Shown: piece after piece, positions 12,971 through 19,566 of the stretch
Numbering within the stretch: position 1 is the first letter of the stretch
How the letters are laid out: every line of letters begins with the position of its first letter
Source: an uncultured Leptolinea sp.
GTDB taxonomy: Bacteria; Chloroflexota; Anaerolineae; Anaerolineales; Anaerolineaceae
DNA: 64,000 nucleotides
NCBI GenBank assembly: GCA_903828565.1
Contig: CAIKMQ010000003.1
Coordinates: 186,001-250,000 of the forward strand
Direction of reading: 5' to 3'
Notes under the pieces: model-generated
Told to the model about the DNA's origin: nothing
Databases searched by the model: none
The model's input: only the letters and a program-made list of their open reading frames with translations
Program-made: the position numbers and the translations under genes

Positions 12971-12998
12971 TTGACACCGGCCGGGCAAAGCCTATAAT
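12971..12998 (+). promoter_or_regulatory. Sigma-70-type promoter of the ubiquitin-like operon
   Basis: A consensus TTGACA (12971-12976) and a consensus TATAAT (12993-12998) are separated by 16 nt. This is among the strongest promoters in the window. The expected start of transcription is near 13005, within or beside the palindrome at 13008-13018. Confidence 0.85.
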
Positions 12999-13007
12999 GT
13001 GGATTAG

Positions 13008-13018
13008 TGGTCAGACCA
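13008..13018. promoter_or_regulatory. Predicted GntR/FadR-type operator
   Basis: TGGTCAGACCA is a perfect 11-bp palindrome around a central base and matches the TGGT-N3-ACCA form recognised by FadR-subfamily GntR regulators such as PdhR. It begins 10 nt after the -10 box, so binding there would block transcription initiation. The first gene downstream encodes a FadR-like winged helix, which makes autoregulation the simplest reading. Confidence 0.75.
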
Positions 13019-13034
13019 GCATACCAGGAGAAGA

Positions 13035-14687
13035 ATGCCAGATAAAATCACCCCCCGTAAATCACTTACCGAGCTTGTCACAGGCAAGCTGGCTGCCAAC
13101 ATCCTTGATGGGATCTACCCAGCCGGTTCGCAGATCCCTGCGGAGCGGGAACTGGTAAAAGACCTGGGTGTCTCCCGCTCTACTGTGCGCGAGGCGCTGC
13201 GAATGCTGGCAGAGCACCGGCTGATTGAAGGACGGCACGGTGTTGGTTGGTTCGTGCGCCAACCGGATGACAGCGACCTGCTTTCCTTGCGCGAGCTGGC
13301 TGCAGACGAGCGCGAATCAGCCGCCCCTGCCATCACGCCATCCGTTCCGGCAGAAATCCCCGCCGGGCCGCGCCGTTTACCGGTGAACCCCGAGAAGCCG
13401 CTGCAGATCCCCAACCTCAAAACTGACCGTTTGGGTACATTTGAGCTGATCTCCTGGTGGGAGCGCGAAAAGGTCAGCCAGGCGAATGTGCTGGTGGTGG
13501 GCGCCGGCGCACTGGGGAACGAGGTCATCAAGAACCTGGTATTGATGGGGATTGGACACATTTTCATTCTGGATTTTGACACGATTGAGATGGCGAACCT
13601 TAGCCGTTCCATCCTCTATCGCGAAAGCGATTCAGGCCGCCAGAAGGCGGAAGTAGCCGCTGCCCGTGCGAAAGAGATCAACCCGGATGTCAAGGTGCAG
13701 TATCTGCATGGCGATGTTAACACCCAGTTGGGATTGGGTATCATCCGCCGCATGGATGTGGTCATCGGCTGCCTGGATAACCGCGAGGCGCGCCTGGCTG
13801 TGAACCGCTTCTGCTACTGGATGAATAAACCCTGGGTGGATGGTGCCATCCAGGAATTCCTGGGCCTGGTGCGGGTTTTTATCCCCGGCAAGGGAGCCTG
13901 CTTTGAGTGCACCCTGACCGAACAGGCGCGGCGTGACCTTTCTCTGCGCTATTCCTGCCCGCTGCTGGCTCGCGAGAATGTTTTGCTGGGTAAAGTGCCT
14001 ACCACACCGACCAGCGCCTCCATCATCGGTGCGATGCAGGCGCAGGAAGCGCTCAAGATCATTCATGGCCTGCCGGTGGAAGCCGGGCGGGTGATCCGCT
14101 ATAACGGCATGACCAATGATATGTATACTTCCACCTACCAGCCGAAGGATGATTGTGAAAGCCACTGGACCTACGGTGAGGTACAGGAGTTACCGGCGAA
14201 GGCCAGCCGAACGACCCTTTCGGAGATGCTGCGCGTTGCCCGTCATGACCTGGGACCAGATGCCGTACTGGAACTGGACCAGGAGATATTGCTTACATTG
14301 GAATGCGCCCAGTGCCATACCACCGAGCAGATTTTGCGGCCGATGGCGCAGGTTACCTTTCAGGGTGCCCACTGCCCGACCTGCGGAAATCTGCGGGAGA
14401 TACAGATGGCTCACACCATCAGCGGTGATGAGCCATTCCTGGATCGTACCCTGGCCAGCCTGGGCGTACCGGCATTGCACATTCTGCGGGCATACAATGC
14501 CAGCGAATATCGTTTTTATGAACTGACAGGTGATCTTCCTGAGGCATTGCACTTTTCGCACTTTGATAAATCTGCCACCGCTCCTGCCCGAGATGGATCT
14601 GCCAAGATCCGCCTGGGGGATGAAGTGGCTGCAGTTCCTGAGACACAGCCATCCAATCGTGGCCGTGTGACGCTGCTGGATGATTGA
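13035..14687 (+). CDS. GntR-type DNA-binding domain fused to a ubiquitin-activating E1-like enzyme
   Basis: A 550-aa fusion. Residues 10-75 form a FadR-subfamily winged helix (IPAEREL, LGVSRSTVREALR). Residues about 135-350 form a ThiF/MoeB/E1 adenylation domain: nucleotide loop VVGAGALGNE (GxGxxG at 156-161), DFDTIEMANLSR, Lys204 in GRQKAE and Asp248 in GCLDNREAR. Cys308 in RYSCPLL is the best candidate for the thioester cysteine; Cys289 and Cys292 (CFEC) resemble the E1/MoeB zinc pair. A second CxxC...CxxC zinc ribbon follows (424/427 and 447/450), then an uncharacterised 100-residue tail. It would activate the Ubl at 16557 and pass it to the E2 at 15659. AGGAG precedes the ATG. I know of no standard annotation for this fusion. 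Confidence 0.9.
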   Translation: MPDKITPRKSLTELVTGKLAANILDGIYPAGSQIPAERELVKDLGVSRSTVREALRMLAEHRLIEGRHGVGWFVRQPDDSDLLSLRELAADERESAAPAITPSVPAEIPAGPRRLPVNPEKPLQIPNLKTDRLGTFELISWWEREKVSQANVLVVGAGALGNEVIKNLVLMGIGHIFILDFDTIEMANLSRSILYRESDSGRQKAEVAAARAKEINPDVKVQYLHGDVNTQLGLGIIRRMDVVIGCLDNREARLAVNRFCYWMNKPWVDGAIQEFLGLVRVFIPGKGACFECTLTEQARRDLSLRYSCPLLARENVLLGKVPTTPTSASIIGAMQAQEALKIIHGLPVEAGRVIRYNGMTNDMYTSTYQPKDDCESHWTYGEVQELPAKASRTTLSEMLRVARHDLGPDAVLELDQEILLTLECAQCHTTEQILRPMAQVTFQGAHCPTCGNLREIQMAHTISGDEPFLDRTLASLGVPALHILRAYNASEYRFYELTGDLPEALHFSHFDKSATAPARDGSAKIRLGDEVAAVPETQPSNRGRVTLLDD

Positions 14688-14694
14688 GGTGAGC

Positions 14695-15633
14695 ATGGCC
14701 GGCAACCAGACCCCGCATCGTGGATTATCACCCACTTGGAAGCACTTCCTGGGATTACTGGGACGATTGCTGCTGGTGGTAATTGCGGGTACTGCGCTCG
14801 GATGGGGTTGGTTGTACCTTTTCTATTACACTCCATTCGCACTGACCGCCTTTTACCGGGTCACTGTAGCATTTGTGCTGGGTCTGAGCGCCGGCCTCTC
14901 CGCCAGGGTCTTCTTGCGGCGCAATACGGCAACACTGCGGTGGGTGACGGTGGCACTCAATGCGGCAGCCGGGCTGCCATTCATGTACTATGGCACCCGC
15001 GGCTTGATCGGTTTCTGGTTGTTTGGCGGGGTTTATACCCGCCCCAATTGGGATGGATTGTGGCAAATGGGGTTGACGGCGCTGGCAGGATGGGGGGTTC
15101 TACTGTTGGGCACCAAAAAACCGAAGGGTACTGCAGCTAGCTCTGTTGATATCACACCAGTATCCCGGCAGAGCGAACCCGGCAGGAAAACCAGATCGAG
15201 AGCAGCTGACAATCAGGTAATCGCGCCACAGCGCGCGGTCGCGGCGCCCGGGAAAAAGAAAACGCAACCAGCCAGTACGGCAGCAATCGGTAGAGCAGCT
15301 CACCTGGCAGCGGTTTCTACGCCAGCGCTGACCACCCGGCGGAAGCTGAAGAAAGCAACCAGCCCCAAAGAGCCGGTATTGCGGGTGAAAAAACCCCGCA
15401 AGCAGGCACGGCAGCAGCAAGCGGCTGAGACTCAGCGCCCCAGGGTCGGACGCCAGCGCCGGGCAAAGATCAGCTTGGTGGGGATGGAAGAGCATCGCTG
15501 CCCATTCTGCCTGGAAGAAGTGAACCCGCGTGACCCGGCAGGGGTGGTGACATGCCCGATCTGCCACACCATGCACCATAAAAGTTGCTGGGATGTGACC
15601 GGTACCTGCCAGGTACCGCACAGCCAGAGTTGA
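14695..15633 (+). CDS. Membrane protein with C-terminal RING-like zinc domain (candidate E3)
   Basis: 312 aa. The first 140 residues contain about four membrane segments (LLGRLLLVVIAGTALGWGWL and others). A long Lys/Arg/Pro/Ala-rich linker follows (about 145-260). The last 48 residues hold a binuclear-zinc pattern: CPFC, 14 residues, CPIC, three residues, HH, two residues, C, six residues, C and a final His, as in the Prok-RING-type treble clefs (CPxC...CPxC...HHxxCW...C). In this operon the obvious role is an E3 that recruits the E2 at the membrane. The start at 14695 is chosen for its GAGGTG site; an ATG at 14680 overlapping the E1 end is possible. Confidence 0.82.
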   Translation: MAGNQTPHRGLSPTWKHFLGLLGRLLLVVIAGTALGWGWLYLFYYTPFALTAFYRVTVAFVLGLSAGLSARVFLRRNTATLRWVTVALNAAAGLPFMYYGTRGLIGFWLFGGVYTRPNWDGLWQMGLTALAGWGVLLLGTKKPKGTAASSVDITPVSRQSEPGRKTRSRAADNQVIAPQRAVAAPGKKKTQPASTAAIGRAAHLAAVSTPALTTRRKLKKATSPKEPVLRVKKPRKQARQQQAAETQRPRVGRQRRAKISLVGMEEHRCPFCLEEVNPRDPAGVVTCPICHTMHHKSCWDVTGTCQVPHSQS

Positions 15634-15658
15634 AATCATCTATTGTACGGAGGTATGG

Positions 15659-16504
15659 ATGCCTGATCTTTCTGTGACCATTGTTCTACCCAGCGGGGGT
15701 GCCCGCCGCGCTGAGATCCCCGATGATGTACCCGTGGGTGAGCTGCTGTTGGAGTTAGCCTCCTTGTTAAAGCTGCCGACTGTCGGACCGGATGGGCGAC
15801 CGATGGGTTACCGGCTGGATAGCAAAGCGCTGGGGAAAGAGTTGAGTGAAAAAGAGACACTCGCTCAGGCTGGCGTGCCTCAGGAAGACCGTTTGATGGT
15901 TTCCGCGGATATCACCGCCGGCGGTACATCCATCGATCAAAGCCCGCATATGCGCCGCCTGCGAGCGGACCATCAATTGATCCAGGAGCTGAACAGCCGC
16001 AGCGACCTCATATCGGTCCAACCGGTCAACCCCCGTCCTCCGCTGCCGCCTGAACGGTATATTGCGACCTTCAAATGCAAGAGCATCATCAATGTAGACC
16101 GGGCCGGCAAACCCAAGTACGGCGACCTGCACCAGGTGGAAATCTACCTGCACAACCAGTACCCCCAGCGCTGGCCGGGAATGAACTGGTTGACACCCAT
16201 CTGGCATCCCAATATCAACCACCTTAATGGCAGCGTTTGTATTGATGCCGCGTGGTGGGCAGCCAGCCGTTCACTCGACCGGTTGGTCATCATGCTGGGC
16301 GAAATGCTCCAGTATAAAAACTTCCATGACGACCCCACCCGCCCGCCCTTCCCCTGGGATGTGGAAGCGGCGCGCTGGTGCAGGTCCTATCGGGAAAAGC
16401 ATCCGGATGTTTTTCCCCTGGACAAGCGCGAACTGCTCCGACCGGAGCGGATCAAGCTGACAAAACCGGAAGCCCGTAAGACAGGCACCATCCGGTTGAA
16501 ATAG
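15659..16504 (+). CDS. Ubiquitin-like domain fused to an E2 (UBC-fold) conjugating enzyme
   Basis: 281 aa. Residues 1-89 are a YukD-like beta-grasp Ubl ending ADITAGG, about 70% identical (62 of 88 by hand) to the free Ubl encoded next. Residues about 115-250 form a UBC domain. The canonical HPN motif is His183-Pro184-Asn185 (IWHPNINHLNG) and the catalytic cysteine is Cys194 in GSVCIDAAWW, with the downstream SLDRLVIMLGEMLQ helix and a Pro-rich loop as in eukaryotic E2s. It would take the Ubl from the E1 as a thioester. GGAGGT lies 4 nt before the ATG. The fused Ubl may act as an intramolecular modifier or docking domain. Confidence 0.9.
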   Translation: MPDLSVTIVLPSGGARRAEIPDDVPVGELLLELASLLKLPTVGPDGRPMGYRLDSKALGKELSEKETLAQAGVPQEDRLMVSADITAGGTSIDQSPHMRRLRADHQLIQELNSRSDLISVQPVNPRPPLPPERYIATFKCKSIINVDRAGKPKYGDLHQVEIYLHNQYPQRWPGMNWLTPIWHPNINHLNGSVCIDAAWWAASRSLDRLVIMLGEMLQYKNFHDDPTRPPFPWDVEAARWCRSYREKHPDVFPLDKRELLRPERIKLTKPEARKTGTIRLK

Positions 16505-16556
16505 GCAAAGGCAGTGGTGCCAACCGCCTACCAACAGACAACAAAAGGAGATACCT

Positions 16557-16823
16557 ATGGCAGACAAAAGCATTACCCTCATCCTCCCCTCCGGGGGCAG
16601 CCGCACAGCGGAAGTACCCGATGATGTTCCAGTAAAGGAACTGATCCCCGAACTGGCAACCACACTCGAGTTACCGACCACCGGGCCGGACGGCCGCCCG
16701 ATTAGTTACCGCCTGGACAGCAAAGCCCTGGGCCGTGAGCTGCAGGAAACCGAGACACTGGCATCTGCCAATGTGCCGGCCGATGACCGCCTGATGATCA
16801 CCGCGGATATTACCGCGGGGTAA
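16557..16823 (+). CDS. Free ubiquitin-like modifier (YukD/EsaB-like beta-grasp)
   Basis: An 88-aa protein covering exactly one beta-grasp domain (SITLILPSGGSR, then VPVKELIPELATTLELP, then ADDRLMITADITAG). It ends at Ala87-Gly88, so a C-terminal glycine is exposed without processing, as needed for E1 adenylation. It is a close paralogue of the Ubl domain at the start of the neighbouring E2, which continues as GG. AAGGAGATACCT before the ATG is the strongest ribosome site of the operon, consistent with the modifier being made in excess. Internal lysines at 4, 27 and 56 could allow chains. Confidence 0.88.
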   Translation: MADKSITLILPSGGSRTAEVPDDVPVKELIPELATTLELPTTGPDGRPISYRLDSKALGRELQETETLASANVPADDRLMITADITAG

Positions 16824-16850
16824 CAGGTTTCAAACACAGGAGTGACAGAG

Positions 16851-17504
16851 ATGGGCACTGCTATCCGCCTGATGCCGCGTGAAGAATCCGCAGAGCATAC
16901 CTCACGCATGCCGTTGCACCATGCAGTGCACTGGCGGCCGCGATCTGCTTTACGGCCGGCAAGTGAAGCGGCGGTGTCTGTCTTTGTCACTCCAAAAGCT
17001 TACATGCGTGCCTGCGCCCACGCGCACAGTGATCTGGAAAATGAAGTTGGCGGATGGCTGCTGGGCAGGTACCGGCTGGATAGTGAACGGGGTGAGCGCT
17101 TTGTGGTGGTAGATACCATTCTGCCGGCACGAAATACCCGGCAGGGCAGCGCGTTTCTCACCTTTACCCCTGAGAGCCAGCTGGAGTTGCACCGGGCGAT
17201 CGAAGAGGAGTACCCCGGCAAGGCACTGGTGGGCTGGTTCCACACCCACCCGCGGATGGGGATCTTCCTGTCCGCATACGACACTTTCCTGCACAACCAT
17301 TTCTTCCCTGAGCTGTGGCAGGTTGCCCTGGTGATCGAACCCTTCTCGCGCAGCGCCGGTTTTTTTGTGCGCCAGCCAGGTGGATTGCTCGATCCCCGGC
17401 GGTATTACGGCTTTTATGAGCTGACCACTGACCGCTCCCGCAGTGTTGTGCACTGGCAGAATCTTTCTGCCAGGCGGGCGCAGAAAGAGAGAAGTACACA
17501 ATGA
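16851..17504 (+). CDS. JAMM/JAB-domain metalloprotease (deubiquitinase-like)
   Basis: 217 aa with a complete JAMM zinc site: Glu65 in ENEVGGWLLG, then His131 and His133, seven residues, Ser141 and Asp144 (HTHPRMGIFLSAYD). This is the arrangement of Rpn11/AMSH-type isopeptidases. In this operon it would remove the Ubl from targets or from the E2 fusion. The start at 16851 is chosen because AGGAG lies 8 nt upstream; a GTG at 16842 is an alternative. The stop overlaps the FHA gene start by 4 nt (ATGA). Confidence 0.92.
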   Translation: MGTAIRLMPREESAEHTSRMPLHHAVHWRPRSALRPASEAAVSVFVTPKAYMRACAHAHSDLENEVGGWLLGRYRLDSERGERFVVVDTILPARNTRQGSAFLTFTPESQLELHRAIEEEYPGKALVGWFHTHPRMGIFLSAYDTFLHNHFFPELWQVALVIEPFSRSAGFFVRQPGGLLDPRRYYGFYELTTDRSRSVVHWQNLSARRAQKERSTQ

Positions 17505-18358
17505 CAAGACAAATGCGTTTATTCTTTTACGGCGTTCTGGGAGCGATTGGTGGGTTGATCGGTTGGCATGCCAGCAACCTGCTTGGCCTTTCCTTCGCGC
17601 CGAGTATCTATGTCGCTGAGGTGGTGTTGGGTGCCATGATTGGATTGAGCATTGGCGCCTGCATCGGCCTTGCCGAAGGGATCGTGCGCCGCAACCTGGC
17701 GCAAGGGTTACGGGCATTCGTCATCACCGGCGGCTTGGGCCTGGCCGGCGGGGCGATGGCCCTGCCAGTATCCGAAGGCTTCTTCCAGCTGCTGGGCGGC
17801 GGAGCCATCGGCCGCGTGGTCGGCTGGGGATTGTTCGGCCTGGTTACCGGGTTGGCTGCCGGTTTTACCGCCGGTACTCAACGCTGGAAAGGGGCATTGG
17901 GCGGAATCCTGGGCGGTTTACTGGGCGGAGCCTTGTTTTCAGGCATTTATACCCTCGTCCGCAGCACACAGCTGGGAAAAGCATTAGGTTTCATCCTGCT
18001 TGGTGCGGCTGTGGGCGCTTTCATCGCTCTGATCGCTTACTTGCTTTCCAGGGCCTGGATCGAAGTGAAGTCTGGCAAGATGAAAGGCTCTGAATTCATT
18101 CTGGATAAATTCCTGCCTCTGACCGGCCCGAGCGCTTTCATTGGCAGCGACTCTTTGAAATCCGAGATCGTTCTACCGGACCCGGATATTGCTCCCCAGC
18201 ACGCCATGCTCAAAGGACACGGTACGCATTTCACTTTGAAAGACATGAGCCTGAGCGGTACGTATATCAATGGGAAGAAGATCGAACAAACGAAGTTATC
18301 AGATAAACAGGTCATCCGGGTAGGGAACACGGAATTGATCTATCATGAAAAGAGGTAA
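17501..18358 (+). CDS. Polytopic membrane protein with C-terminal FHA domain
   Basis: 285 aa. Roughly residues 1-195 contain five or six Gly/Ala-rich membrane helices (GVLGAIGGLIGWHA, AVVLGAMIGLSIGA-type repeats, ALGGILGGLLGGALF). Residues about 205-283 match a forkhead-associated domain (FIGSDSLKSEIVLPD, QHAMLKG, SGTYINGKK). The usual phosphothreonine contacts are altered: the Arg of GR is Ser and the Ser of the SxxH motif is Ala, so it may bind unphosphorylated partners. Position and overlap with the JAMM gene make it part of the ubiquitin-like operon. Confidence 0.8.
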   Translation: MTRQMRLFFYGVLGAIGGLIGWHASNLLGLSFAPSIYVAEVVLGAMIGLSIGACIGLAEGIVRRNLAQGLRAFVITGGLGLAGGAMALPVSEGFFQLLGGGAIGRVVGWGLFGLVTGLAAGFTAGTQRWKGALGGILGGLLGGALFSGIYTLVRSTQLGKALGFILLGAAVGAFIALIAYLLSRAWIEVKSGKMKGSEFILDKFLPLTGPSAFIGSDSLKSEIVLPDPDIAPQHAMLKGHGTHFTLKDMSLSGTYINGKKIEQTKLSDKQVIRVGNTELIYHEKR

Positions 18359-18361
18359 ACC

Positions 18362-19516
18362 ATGAACCGGACCCATAGACTCTTGATCTTACCGGTAATG
18401 TTGTTCACACTGCTGTTTGGCAGTGCGGCAGCCCCAATGCAAGACGCTGTACCGGCAGCCGGTGATCTGAACGTCCGCATCACCCAGGTGGATACCAGCC
18501 ACTTCCCGCAGGTGACAGTCTACATTTCCGTGACCGATGCTGCCGGTGAACCGGTGTCGATCAACCCGGCCGCCATTCTTTTGCAGGAAGAAGGTAAGGT
18601 GATCACTCCCAGCCAGGTGAATGGCACCGGGGAAGGCACTCCGCTGACCACCCTGCTTGTGCTGGATATCTCCGGCAGTATGAACCATGCCAACAAGCTT
18701 GAGAACGCGCGTTCGGTGGCCAAAGCGTACATCGGGCAATCCCGCCTTGATGACCAGGTCGGAATTCTGGTATTCAATGAAAGTATTGAGTTGGTGCAAG
18801 GTGTGACTTCGGACCAGGATGCGCTGTATACAGCCCTGGACAATCTCAAAGCCAAAGATGATACAGCAATGTATGATGCCTTGGTACAGGCGATTTCCGT
18901 GCTCAACCCGCTGGACGGGCGCAAGGCTATCATCGTGCTGACAGATGGCATGGATAATCACAGCCGGCACACCGCGCAGGACGTGTTGGAAGCGATCGGC
19001 CAAAGCGGCCTTTCTATCTCCACCATCGGGTTGGGGAATCCGGGCCAAAGTACTGGTAACCTGGCTGCGTTGGATGAAGCCGGGCTGCGTGCCCTGGCAG
19101 AACAAGCCGGCGGTCAATACGGTTATGCCAGTGACCTGGCATCGCTGCAGGCATTATACGAGCTGTACGGCAGGTCGCTGCAAAGTGAGTATGCCATCAC
19201 CTACATCTCTCCCGCAAAGCTGCATGATGGATTCAACCGCAGCCTGAGTGTTTCCCTGGTGGATAGCAATCTGGCTCCGCTTGGTCCAGCAACCGAATCT
19301 AAATACAATCCTGGCGGTTTGTTGCCTGAAACATCCGGCCCTTCATGGCCTCTGTTCTATGGCCTGCTGGCAGCCCTGTTGATCATTCTGGCACTGCCTT
19401 TTGTGTTGCCGAAGATCAGAATGGCAAAGAAAACCCCACCGGGAAAATCCGCGGATAAAGAGCCGATCGTGATGAAAGGCAAACCACCCGCGAAACCACG
19501 GATAAAGTTGAAATAA
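18362..19516 (+). CDS. Secreted, C-terminally membrane-anchored VWA-domain protein
   Basis: 384 aa. A signal peptide (residues about 6-26) is followed by a beta-rich segment, then a von Willebrand A domain (about 95-285) with the MIDAS motif DISGSM and the later ILTDGMDN. A membrane helix (about 335-356, LFYGLLAALLIILALPFVLP) and a short Lys-rich cytoplasmic tail close the protein. The VWA would be outside and the tail inside, where it could be a substrate of the conjugation system. It is the last gene of the operon, 3 nt after the FHA gene, followed by a bidirectional terminator. Confidence 0.83.
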   Translation: MNRTHRLLILPVMLFTLLFGSAAAPMQDAVPAAGDLNVRITQVDTSHFPQVTVYISVTDAAGEPVSINPAAILLQEEGKVITPSQVNGTGEGTPLTTLLVLDISGSMNHANKLENARSVAKAYIGQSRLDDQVGILVFNESIELVQGVTSDQDALYTALDNLKAKDDTAMYDALVQAISVLNPLDGRKAIIVLTDGMDNHSRHTAQDVLEAIGQSGLSISTIGLGNPGQSTGNLAALDEAGLRALAEQAGGQYGYASDLASLQALYELYGRSLQSEYAITYISPAKLHDGFNRSLSVSLVDSNLAPLGPATESKYNPGGLLPETSGPSWPLFYGLLAALLIILALPFVLPKIRMAKKTPPGKSADKEPIVMKGKPPAKPRIKLK

Positions 19517-19536: not shown

Positions 19537-19566
19537 CGGACTGTTGAAACAGTCCGATATTTTTTA
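19537..19566. terminator. Bidirectional terminator between the VWA and kimA-like genes
   Basis: CGGACTGT and ACAGTCCG form an 8-bp stem with a TGAA loop. A-rich sequence precedes it and ATATTTTTTA follows, so it can serve both converging genes. Confidence 0.85.

Follow-up and report, generated by a model that had tools for sequence, protein, structure and literature searches.

What does a bacterium do with a eukaryote-like protein-tagging cascade, encoded whole in one operon and accompanied by membrane proteins? The question is raised by a 64,000-nucleotide stretch of DNA from an uncultured Leptolinea sp. (assembly GCA_903828565.1, contig CAIKMQ010000003.1, positions 186,001 to 250,000), which was analysed at full length and is called the window here. 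An earlier sequence-only reading placed seven plus-strand open reading frames (ORFs) at 13035-19516, with coordinates and strand that we recovered unchanged. We consider it probable that these genes encode an autorepressed and complete module for conjugation of a ubiquitin-like protein (Ubl), working at the cytoplasmic face of the membrane. The parts of the module, their conserved active sites, a near-invariant gene set and an operator linked to a helix-turn-helix (HTH) domain on E1 are all read from sequence comparison. The features of the locus are as follows.

12971..12998, plus strand: sigma-70-type promoter, TTGACA - 16 bp - TATAAT, 12/12 consensus match (predicted by consensus alone)
13008..13018, no strand: palindromic FadR/GntR-type operator TGGTCAGACCA (predicted), between the promoter and the E1 start
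13035-19516, plus strand: E1/RING/E2/Ubl/JAMM/FHA/VWA operon, seven tightly packed ORFs
13035..14687, plus strand: E1, with GntR winged helix, adenylation domain, C-terminal domain like the ubiquitin-fold domain (UFD) and disordered tail
14680..15633, plus strand: membrane RING protein with C-terminal Prok-RING_1 (Pfam, hydropathy, zinc ligands)
15659..16504, plus strand: E2, a YukD-type Ubl domain fused to UBC (Pfam, conservation, AlphaFold2, Foldseek)
16557..16823, plus strand: free Ubl, YukD type, 88 amino acids (Pfam; C-terminus ..ITADITAG)
16842..17504, plus strand: predicted JAMM isopeptidase (Pfam JAB, active-site residues)
17501..18358, plus strand: FHA protein with C-terminal degenerate FHA domain (Pfam, hydropathy, residue loss)
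18362..19516, plus strand: VWA protein (Pfam, hydropathy, conservation of the metal ion-dependent adhesion site, MIDAS)
19537..19556, plus strand: intrinsic terminator-like hairpin 3' of the VWA gene, an 8-pair stem and then a T run; the scanned region holds 8 terminator-like sites versus 6.4 expected, and the position of this one is the main argument for it

Pfam assigns residues 13-74 of E1 to GntR (7.8e-19) and residues 138-374 to ThiF (3.6e-60). A UFD-like C-terminal domain follows at residues ~383-500, and then a disordered tail with the terminal motif GRVTL. Searched against the PDB, the E1 profile gives higher scores for UBA7/UBA1 (132 and 112 bits) than for ThiF/MoeB (93 and 86 bits). 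By fold (VIA), ThiF, MoeB and UBA3 lie close together at Z 29-30 from the AlphaFold2 model, SAE2 and UBA1 are also matched, and the alignments to UBA1, UBA3 and SAE2 reach residue ~500, across the UFD-like domain. The winged helix at the N-terminus finds PdhR and FadR-family chains. Alignment of 37 E1s leaves E37, R38, R48, R52 and G71 invariant in the GntR part, together with C308 further on. The latter, within RYSCPL, is likely the thioester cysteine: as inferred from its position in the sequence, it sits where eukaryotic E1s carry theirs, in a loop (301-313) that the model gives with low confidence.

The E2 is composed of a Ubl domain (residues 1-88; Pfam YukD, 1.7e-10 over 6-80), a UBC domain (~96-262; UQ_con, 1.4e-10 over 155-224) and a basic tail that ends in TIRLK. 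That E2 and a Ubl are fused had been proposed before and stands; more precisely, the Ubl, of YukD type, precedes the UBC domain. At least 97% of 81 homologues keep the HPN motif (183-185) and C194. The match to eukaryotic E2s in the PDB is found both by sequence profile (best 2e-9, UBE2K) and by fold, with the AlphaFold2 model in Foldseek.

The free Ubl (YukD, 2.3e-11) is constant at its end: all 75 homologues of the standard 88-residue length stop exactly at TAG, with Gly88 last. This would be a pre-matured terminus, and conjugation via Gly88 is predicted. In the E2-fused Ubl (window 15659-15925), TAG occupies 86-88 in 79 of 81 copies and the next residue is nearly always Ala, Gly or Ser. A small residue behind TAG is what a cleavable precursor would have; the fused domain may be a precursor cut by the JAMM enzyme or a built-in regulatory Ubl. 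One lineage, L125/L157 (L-numbers label the loci of our comparison), has an E2 without it.

Hydropathy places hydrophobic segments in the RING, FHA and VWA proteins only, and none in E1, E2, Ubl or JAMM. The RING protein has at least two of them (23-41 and 53-71), a basic linker and a C-terminal Prok-RING_1 (PF14446, 3.4e-8 over residues 271-311, above cut-off), whose eight zinc ligands C274, C277, C292, C295, H299/H300, C303, C310 and H314 are kept in at least 97% of 79 homologues. The JAMM protein (JAB, 5.6e-9) retains E68, H134, H136, S144 and D147 at the same level in 75 homologues. The VWA protein (VWA_2, 3e-16) has a signal sequence, an extracytoplasmic VWA domain, one C-terminal membrane segment (331-349) and a basic cytosolic tail ending PRIKLK; its MIDAS residues D102, S104, S106, T168 and D195 are again kept in at least 97%, here of 66 homologues.

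The FHA protein has about five hydrophobic segments by hydropathy. Its domain matches FHA (2.8e-13) and also the YscD cytoplasmic domain. In 71 homologues the canonical phosphothreonine Arg is Ser in every one, the Ser of SxxH is Ala in 50, Asp in 12 and Ser in 6, and the Asn of NGT is nearly always Ser, Lys, Ala, Thr or Gln. Because all three contact residues are replaced, annotation of the domain as a reader of phosphothreonine should be avoided.

The family models and the conserved catalytic residues uphold the recognisable active sites that the sequence-only reading had named in E1, E2, JAMM and RING. As to structure, the UBC and E1 adenylation folds were obtained, and the failure of fold prediction that had been named beforehand as a refutation did not occur there; the JAMM and RING proteins were judged by family models only. 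A complete, membrane-linked E1/E2/RING/Ubl/JAMM cascade, with FHA, VWA and the GntR fusion as constant parts, is likewise borne out by Pfam, hydropathy and synteny. That reading had not noticed the operator, the replaced residues of the FHA domain, the motif common to several protein ends, the vertical inheritance or the sister operon described below.

How constant is this set? Searched for in 61 genomes, the E2 is present in 14 (counting the own genome), and the copies in relatives are 68-89% identical. The FHA protein as query returns exactly the same 14 and none of the other 47, so that FHA belongs to the constant set, as does VWA by synteny. A one-genome-per-species scan gave 121 related stretches, of which 80 were kept for study, all Chloroflexi/Anaerolineae records. 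Cultured carriers include Leptolinea tardivitalis YMTK-2, Leptolinea sp. HRD-7 and Pelolinea submarina MO-CFX1. Conservation of the gene neighbourhood, named beforehand as a check, was found: the order E1-RING-E2-Ubl-JAMM-FHA-VWA is unbroken in all those of 94 loci whose contig is long enough, with the one exception of L122. Orders listed as 'Ubl E2Ubl' reflect the Ubl query matching the E2's own Ubl domain. The own genome holds a single copy of the operon, which contains both of the YukD matches and the only Prok-RING_1 match of that genome. A phylum-wide sample gave a match in 20 of 400 genomes, several of them weak.

The operon appears to be inherited mostly vertically, because the sharing of flanking genes falls smoothly as E2 diverges, from 21/22 pairs at 90-95% identity to 24/1415 at 70-75%. 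We also considered a mobile origin and ruled against it, as no relative of the operon was found in the plasmids, phages and viral contigs searched.

Among the outlying loci, L249-L251 and L253 belong distantly to the present operon type and carry two JAMM genes side by side; L249 has in addition an E1 without HTH and a rearranged gene order.

The GntR part of E1 is accompanied by a matching site at the operon's own promoter. TGGTCAGACCA lies about ten bases downstream of TATAAT, at 13008-13018. With one mismatch at most, the pattern TGGTCNGACCA is present between -60 and +20 relative to the E1 start in 64 of 67 relatives, where shuffles give an expectation of 0.22 of 67. In further operons, with HTH presence read by eye from the E1 N-termini, the exact operator accompanies 6 of 7 E1s with HTH and 0 of 9 without. 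It is present in HTH-bearing L250, L251, L253, L254, L157 and L122, those of L251 and L253 being found only in a wider stretch (start codons called too far upstream); none is found at L252, whose start is uncertain. The least variable residues of the GntR part, E37, R38, R48, R52 and G71, have a spacing which we take to be that of the DNA-contacting arginines of FadR. The traits of a GntR/FadR-type regulator are thus present: winged helix, R38, R48 and R52, and, at its own promoter, an operator of the TGGTnnnACCA type, DNA binding being predicted.

A wider regulon was considered and rejected: the two other exact copies in the own genome are both inside open frames, and over the own genome and four relatives together the other exact copies are mostly so. 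Since the operator is found in 64/67 relatives, is tied to the presence of the HTH and has its other copies inside open frames, E1 looks like a repressor of its own pathway. This is the best-supported new inference from the locus.

We propose the following course of events. An E1 homodimer would adenylate Gly88 of the YukD-type Ubl and load the Ubl on its own Cys308, then, aided by the UFD, pass it to Cys194 of E2. The membrane RING protein would draw the loaded E2 to the membrane. There the tag would be placed on lysines of proteins in or near the membrane, perhaps those of the VWA tail itself, and the JAMM enzyme would take it off. The VWA protein, as a sensor or binder outside with its basic tail inside, would form a membrane platform with the multi-pass, non-canonical FHA protein. 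At the promoter, the GntR part of E1 would bind TGGTCWGACCA just 3' of the strong promoter and so repress the operon; expression would probably receive feedback from E1 or from the state of the Ubl. Strand-like end motifs of E1, E2, JAMM and VWA would probably dock on one shared partner, for which the Ubl is the likeliest candidate. Most likely the operon serves to regulate envelope proteins or to control their quality, and not to defend against phage.

The docking step comes from a motif, [IV]-basic-[LIVF], seen at the C-termini of E2 (..PRIKLK), VWA (..PRIKLK) and E1 (..GRVKLRD) and at the N-terminus of JAMM (..IRLLP; AIRLMP in the window). In its loose form it is present at the C-terminus of 67/81 E2, 57/67 VWA and 50/79 E1 proteins versus 21/443 flanking ORFs, and at the N-terminus of 43/75 JAMM proteins versus 27/443; the ends of the Ubl and FHA proteins lack it. 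The pattern was picked after viewing the sequences, so these counts, taken over relatives that share descent, describe rather than test it.

Two other uses of the motif were tried. It is disfavoured as a lysine acceptor: the final Lys is often missing in E1 (GRVTLLDD), and E2 has Lys or Arg interchangeably at the second position. As a mark of further partners genome-wide it was rejected: the strict DNA pattern occurs in six places, three of which match TGG rather than a stop (the pattern being degenerate), and only the VWA gene ends a recognisable ORF there; looser forms were not searched.

The charges of the present operon can be compared with those of a sister operon, found at L153, L154 and L241-L248; E2s closely homologous to that of L154 occur in ~30 genomes of another Anaerolineae family. 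The sister operon encodes a dynamin-like GTPase, a 400-residue protein, a CAP-like protein, E1, Ubl, E2, a JAB protein with a membrane segment, a second JAB protein and a RING protein, some genes being absent in some of the ten loci read. The two types share homologous E1, RING and JAMM, E2s that are ~45-50% identical and a Ubl that in the sister ends in VTAG. In contrast, the sister E1 has no HTH, and there is no operator, no fused Ubl and no FHA or VWA; the GTPase and the second JAB are extra, and the E2 tail is acidic instead of basic. Here the Ubl has a net charge of -8 and the E2 tail +6.5; in the sister the Ubl is near 0 and the tail (DDLGINIL) -5. Such a joint change is what a contact between tail and Ubl would lead one to expect, in a comparison of only two clades.

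The sister operon also carries a short repeat, approximately I-x-I-T-x-x-D-I, in its RING, CAP-like and 400-residue proteins, with 2.5-4.9 matches per 1000 residues versus a background of 0.1. In L153 it is seen at residue 50 of the RING protein, residue 7 of the CAP-like protein and residues 241 and 262 of a 416-residue protein. L155, whose short contig comes from a different class within the phylum, has genes for a RING-like membrane protein, E1, a Ubl-like protein and an E2 that is only 27% identical to the sister-type E2.

A bolder reading combines two of these elements, and we put it forward tentatively, as possible but doubtful. The motif carried by E1, E2, JAMM and the VWA membrane protein would form a strand and bind the Ubl noncovalently, as a bacterial equivalent of the SUMO-interacting motif in which the charges are swapped (motif basic, Ubl acidic). 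E1 would at the same time act as a transcription factor, sensing the supply of Ubl and setting the expression of the whole pathway.

Several observations speak against the autorepressed membrane module or parts of it. L122 lacks FHA and VWA after JAMM and has a solute-binding-protein-like frame there instead; FHA and VWA may be dispensable, or this contig may be rearranged. The patchy presence, 14/61, would suit any accessory function, and role and targets are read from topology alone. For the motif, basic-rich 14-mers give the loose form by composition alone in 52/459 cases (11%), and the copy in the RING protein, located before the RING, is weak (2/79 strict, 29/79 loose). Docking of the E2 tail on the E2's own Ubl was rejected, the tail being disordered in the model (predicted local distance difference test ~49). 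In the present operon the FHA domain may itself be the motif binder.

The strongest rival explanation sees an anti-phage function comparable to that of Bil or type II CBASS: the genes would have been acquired as a defence cassette, and the Ubl would be attached to phage structural or immune proteins. The enzyme classes are identical and the presence is patchy. Moreover, the PADLOC E1-E2 and JAB models match E1 and JAMM, over partial length only, and of the Bil proteins only BilC is recognised, at E=0.0072; no PADLOC model matches the E2, Ubl, RING, FHA or VWA proteins, and the seven operon proteins include no Bil effector, no cGAS-like nucleotidyltransferase and no CBASS effector. The neighbours in the window look chromosomal (rRNA methylase-like, radical SAM-like, an APC-type transporter, KdpE-like), the flanks track descent, and phage or plasmid copies were not found. 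An extracytoplasmic VWA domain and a membrane RING are also ill-suited to cytosolic phage targets. We regard a defence role as unlikely.

Alternatively, the Ubl is not conjugated: it would be a scaffold or a sulphur carrier, a YukD-like structural Ubl around which E1 and E2 would assemble a membrane complex in the manner of type VII secretion. JAB/E1/Ubl neighbourhoods were described by Iyer et al. (2006), who assigned YukD to secretion clusters, and Bacillus YukD is reported unconjugated, in ESAT-6 clusters with an FtsK-type ATPase (PMC1779556). The C-terminal Gly here is single, not GlyGly. On the other hand, an invariant catalytic E2 and JAMM would have no obvious use if there were no conjugate, no FtsK/EccC ATPase or WXG100 gene is among the operon's seven genes, and the free Ubls end exactly at the putative pre-matured TAG. 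This explanation seems to us quite unlikely.

That the FHA protein reads phosphothreonine, and so couples Ser/Thr kinase signalling to Ubl tagging, is very unlikely: its family match is set against the three replaced contact residues, the match to YscD and the absence of a kinase from the operon.

We therefore retain the autorepressed module at the membrane as the preferred reading. Bacterial Ubl systems studied by experiment are mostly anti-phage (PMC12687455). The present operon could reveal a role of bacterial tagging outside phage defence, because it is mostly vertical and has a candidate RING E3, a fixed membrane pair and its own regulator; it suggests that bacteria can tag proteins as part of a regulated cell process, and not solely as a weapon against viruses. 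E1, E2, Ubl and JAMM are free of membrane segments and should suit reconstitution, cultured carriers exist, and the predicted operator and motif lend themselves to quick yes/no tests.

Among known systems, the closest are the bacterial operons with E1, E2, JAB, YukD-like Ubls and RING E3s that Burroughs, Iyer and Aravind reportedly predicted in 2011 from gene neighbourhoods, with the YukD-like Ubls said to be predicted as conjugated. The E1 with UFD-like domain, the E2, the JAMM, the YukD-type Ubl and the Prok-RING_1 are common to them and to the present operon. The latter has the traits of RING-containing bacterial Ubl operons (a ThiF E1 with UFD-like domain, an E2 with Cys and HPN, a Prok-RING). 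Compared with the operons reportedly predicted in 2011, it may add constant FHA and VWA membrane partners, a GntR HTH on E1 with its operator, and a second Ubl on E2. With Bil (BilABCD) and type II CBASS Cap2/Cap3 it has the E1, E2 and JAB chemistry in common, and with Bil also a Ubl; neither is known to have a RING or membrane partners. YukD/EccD of type VII secretion belong to the same Ubl family, PF08817, but there an FtsK-type ATPase is present and here there is none. Finally, the eukaryotic ubiquitin, NEDD8 and SUMO cascades resemble the present one in the HPN and catalytic Cys context of E2, in the order of adenylation domain and then UFD in E1, in the RING E3 and in the JAMM. Contrary to these cascades, the E1 has no pair of inactive and active adenylation domains (IAD/AAD) and carries a DNA-binding domain, and the whole system is a single bacterial transcription unit.

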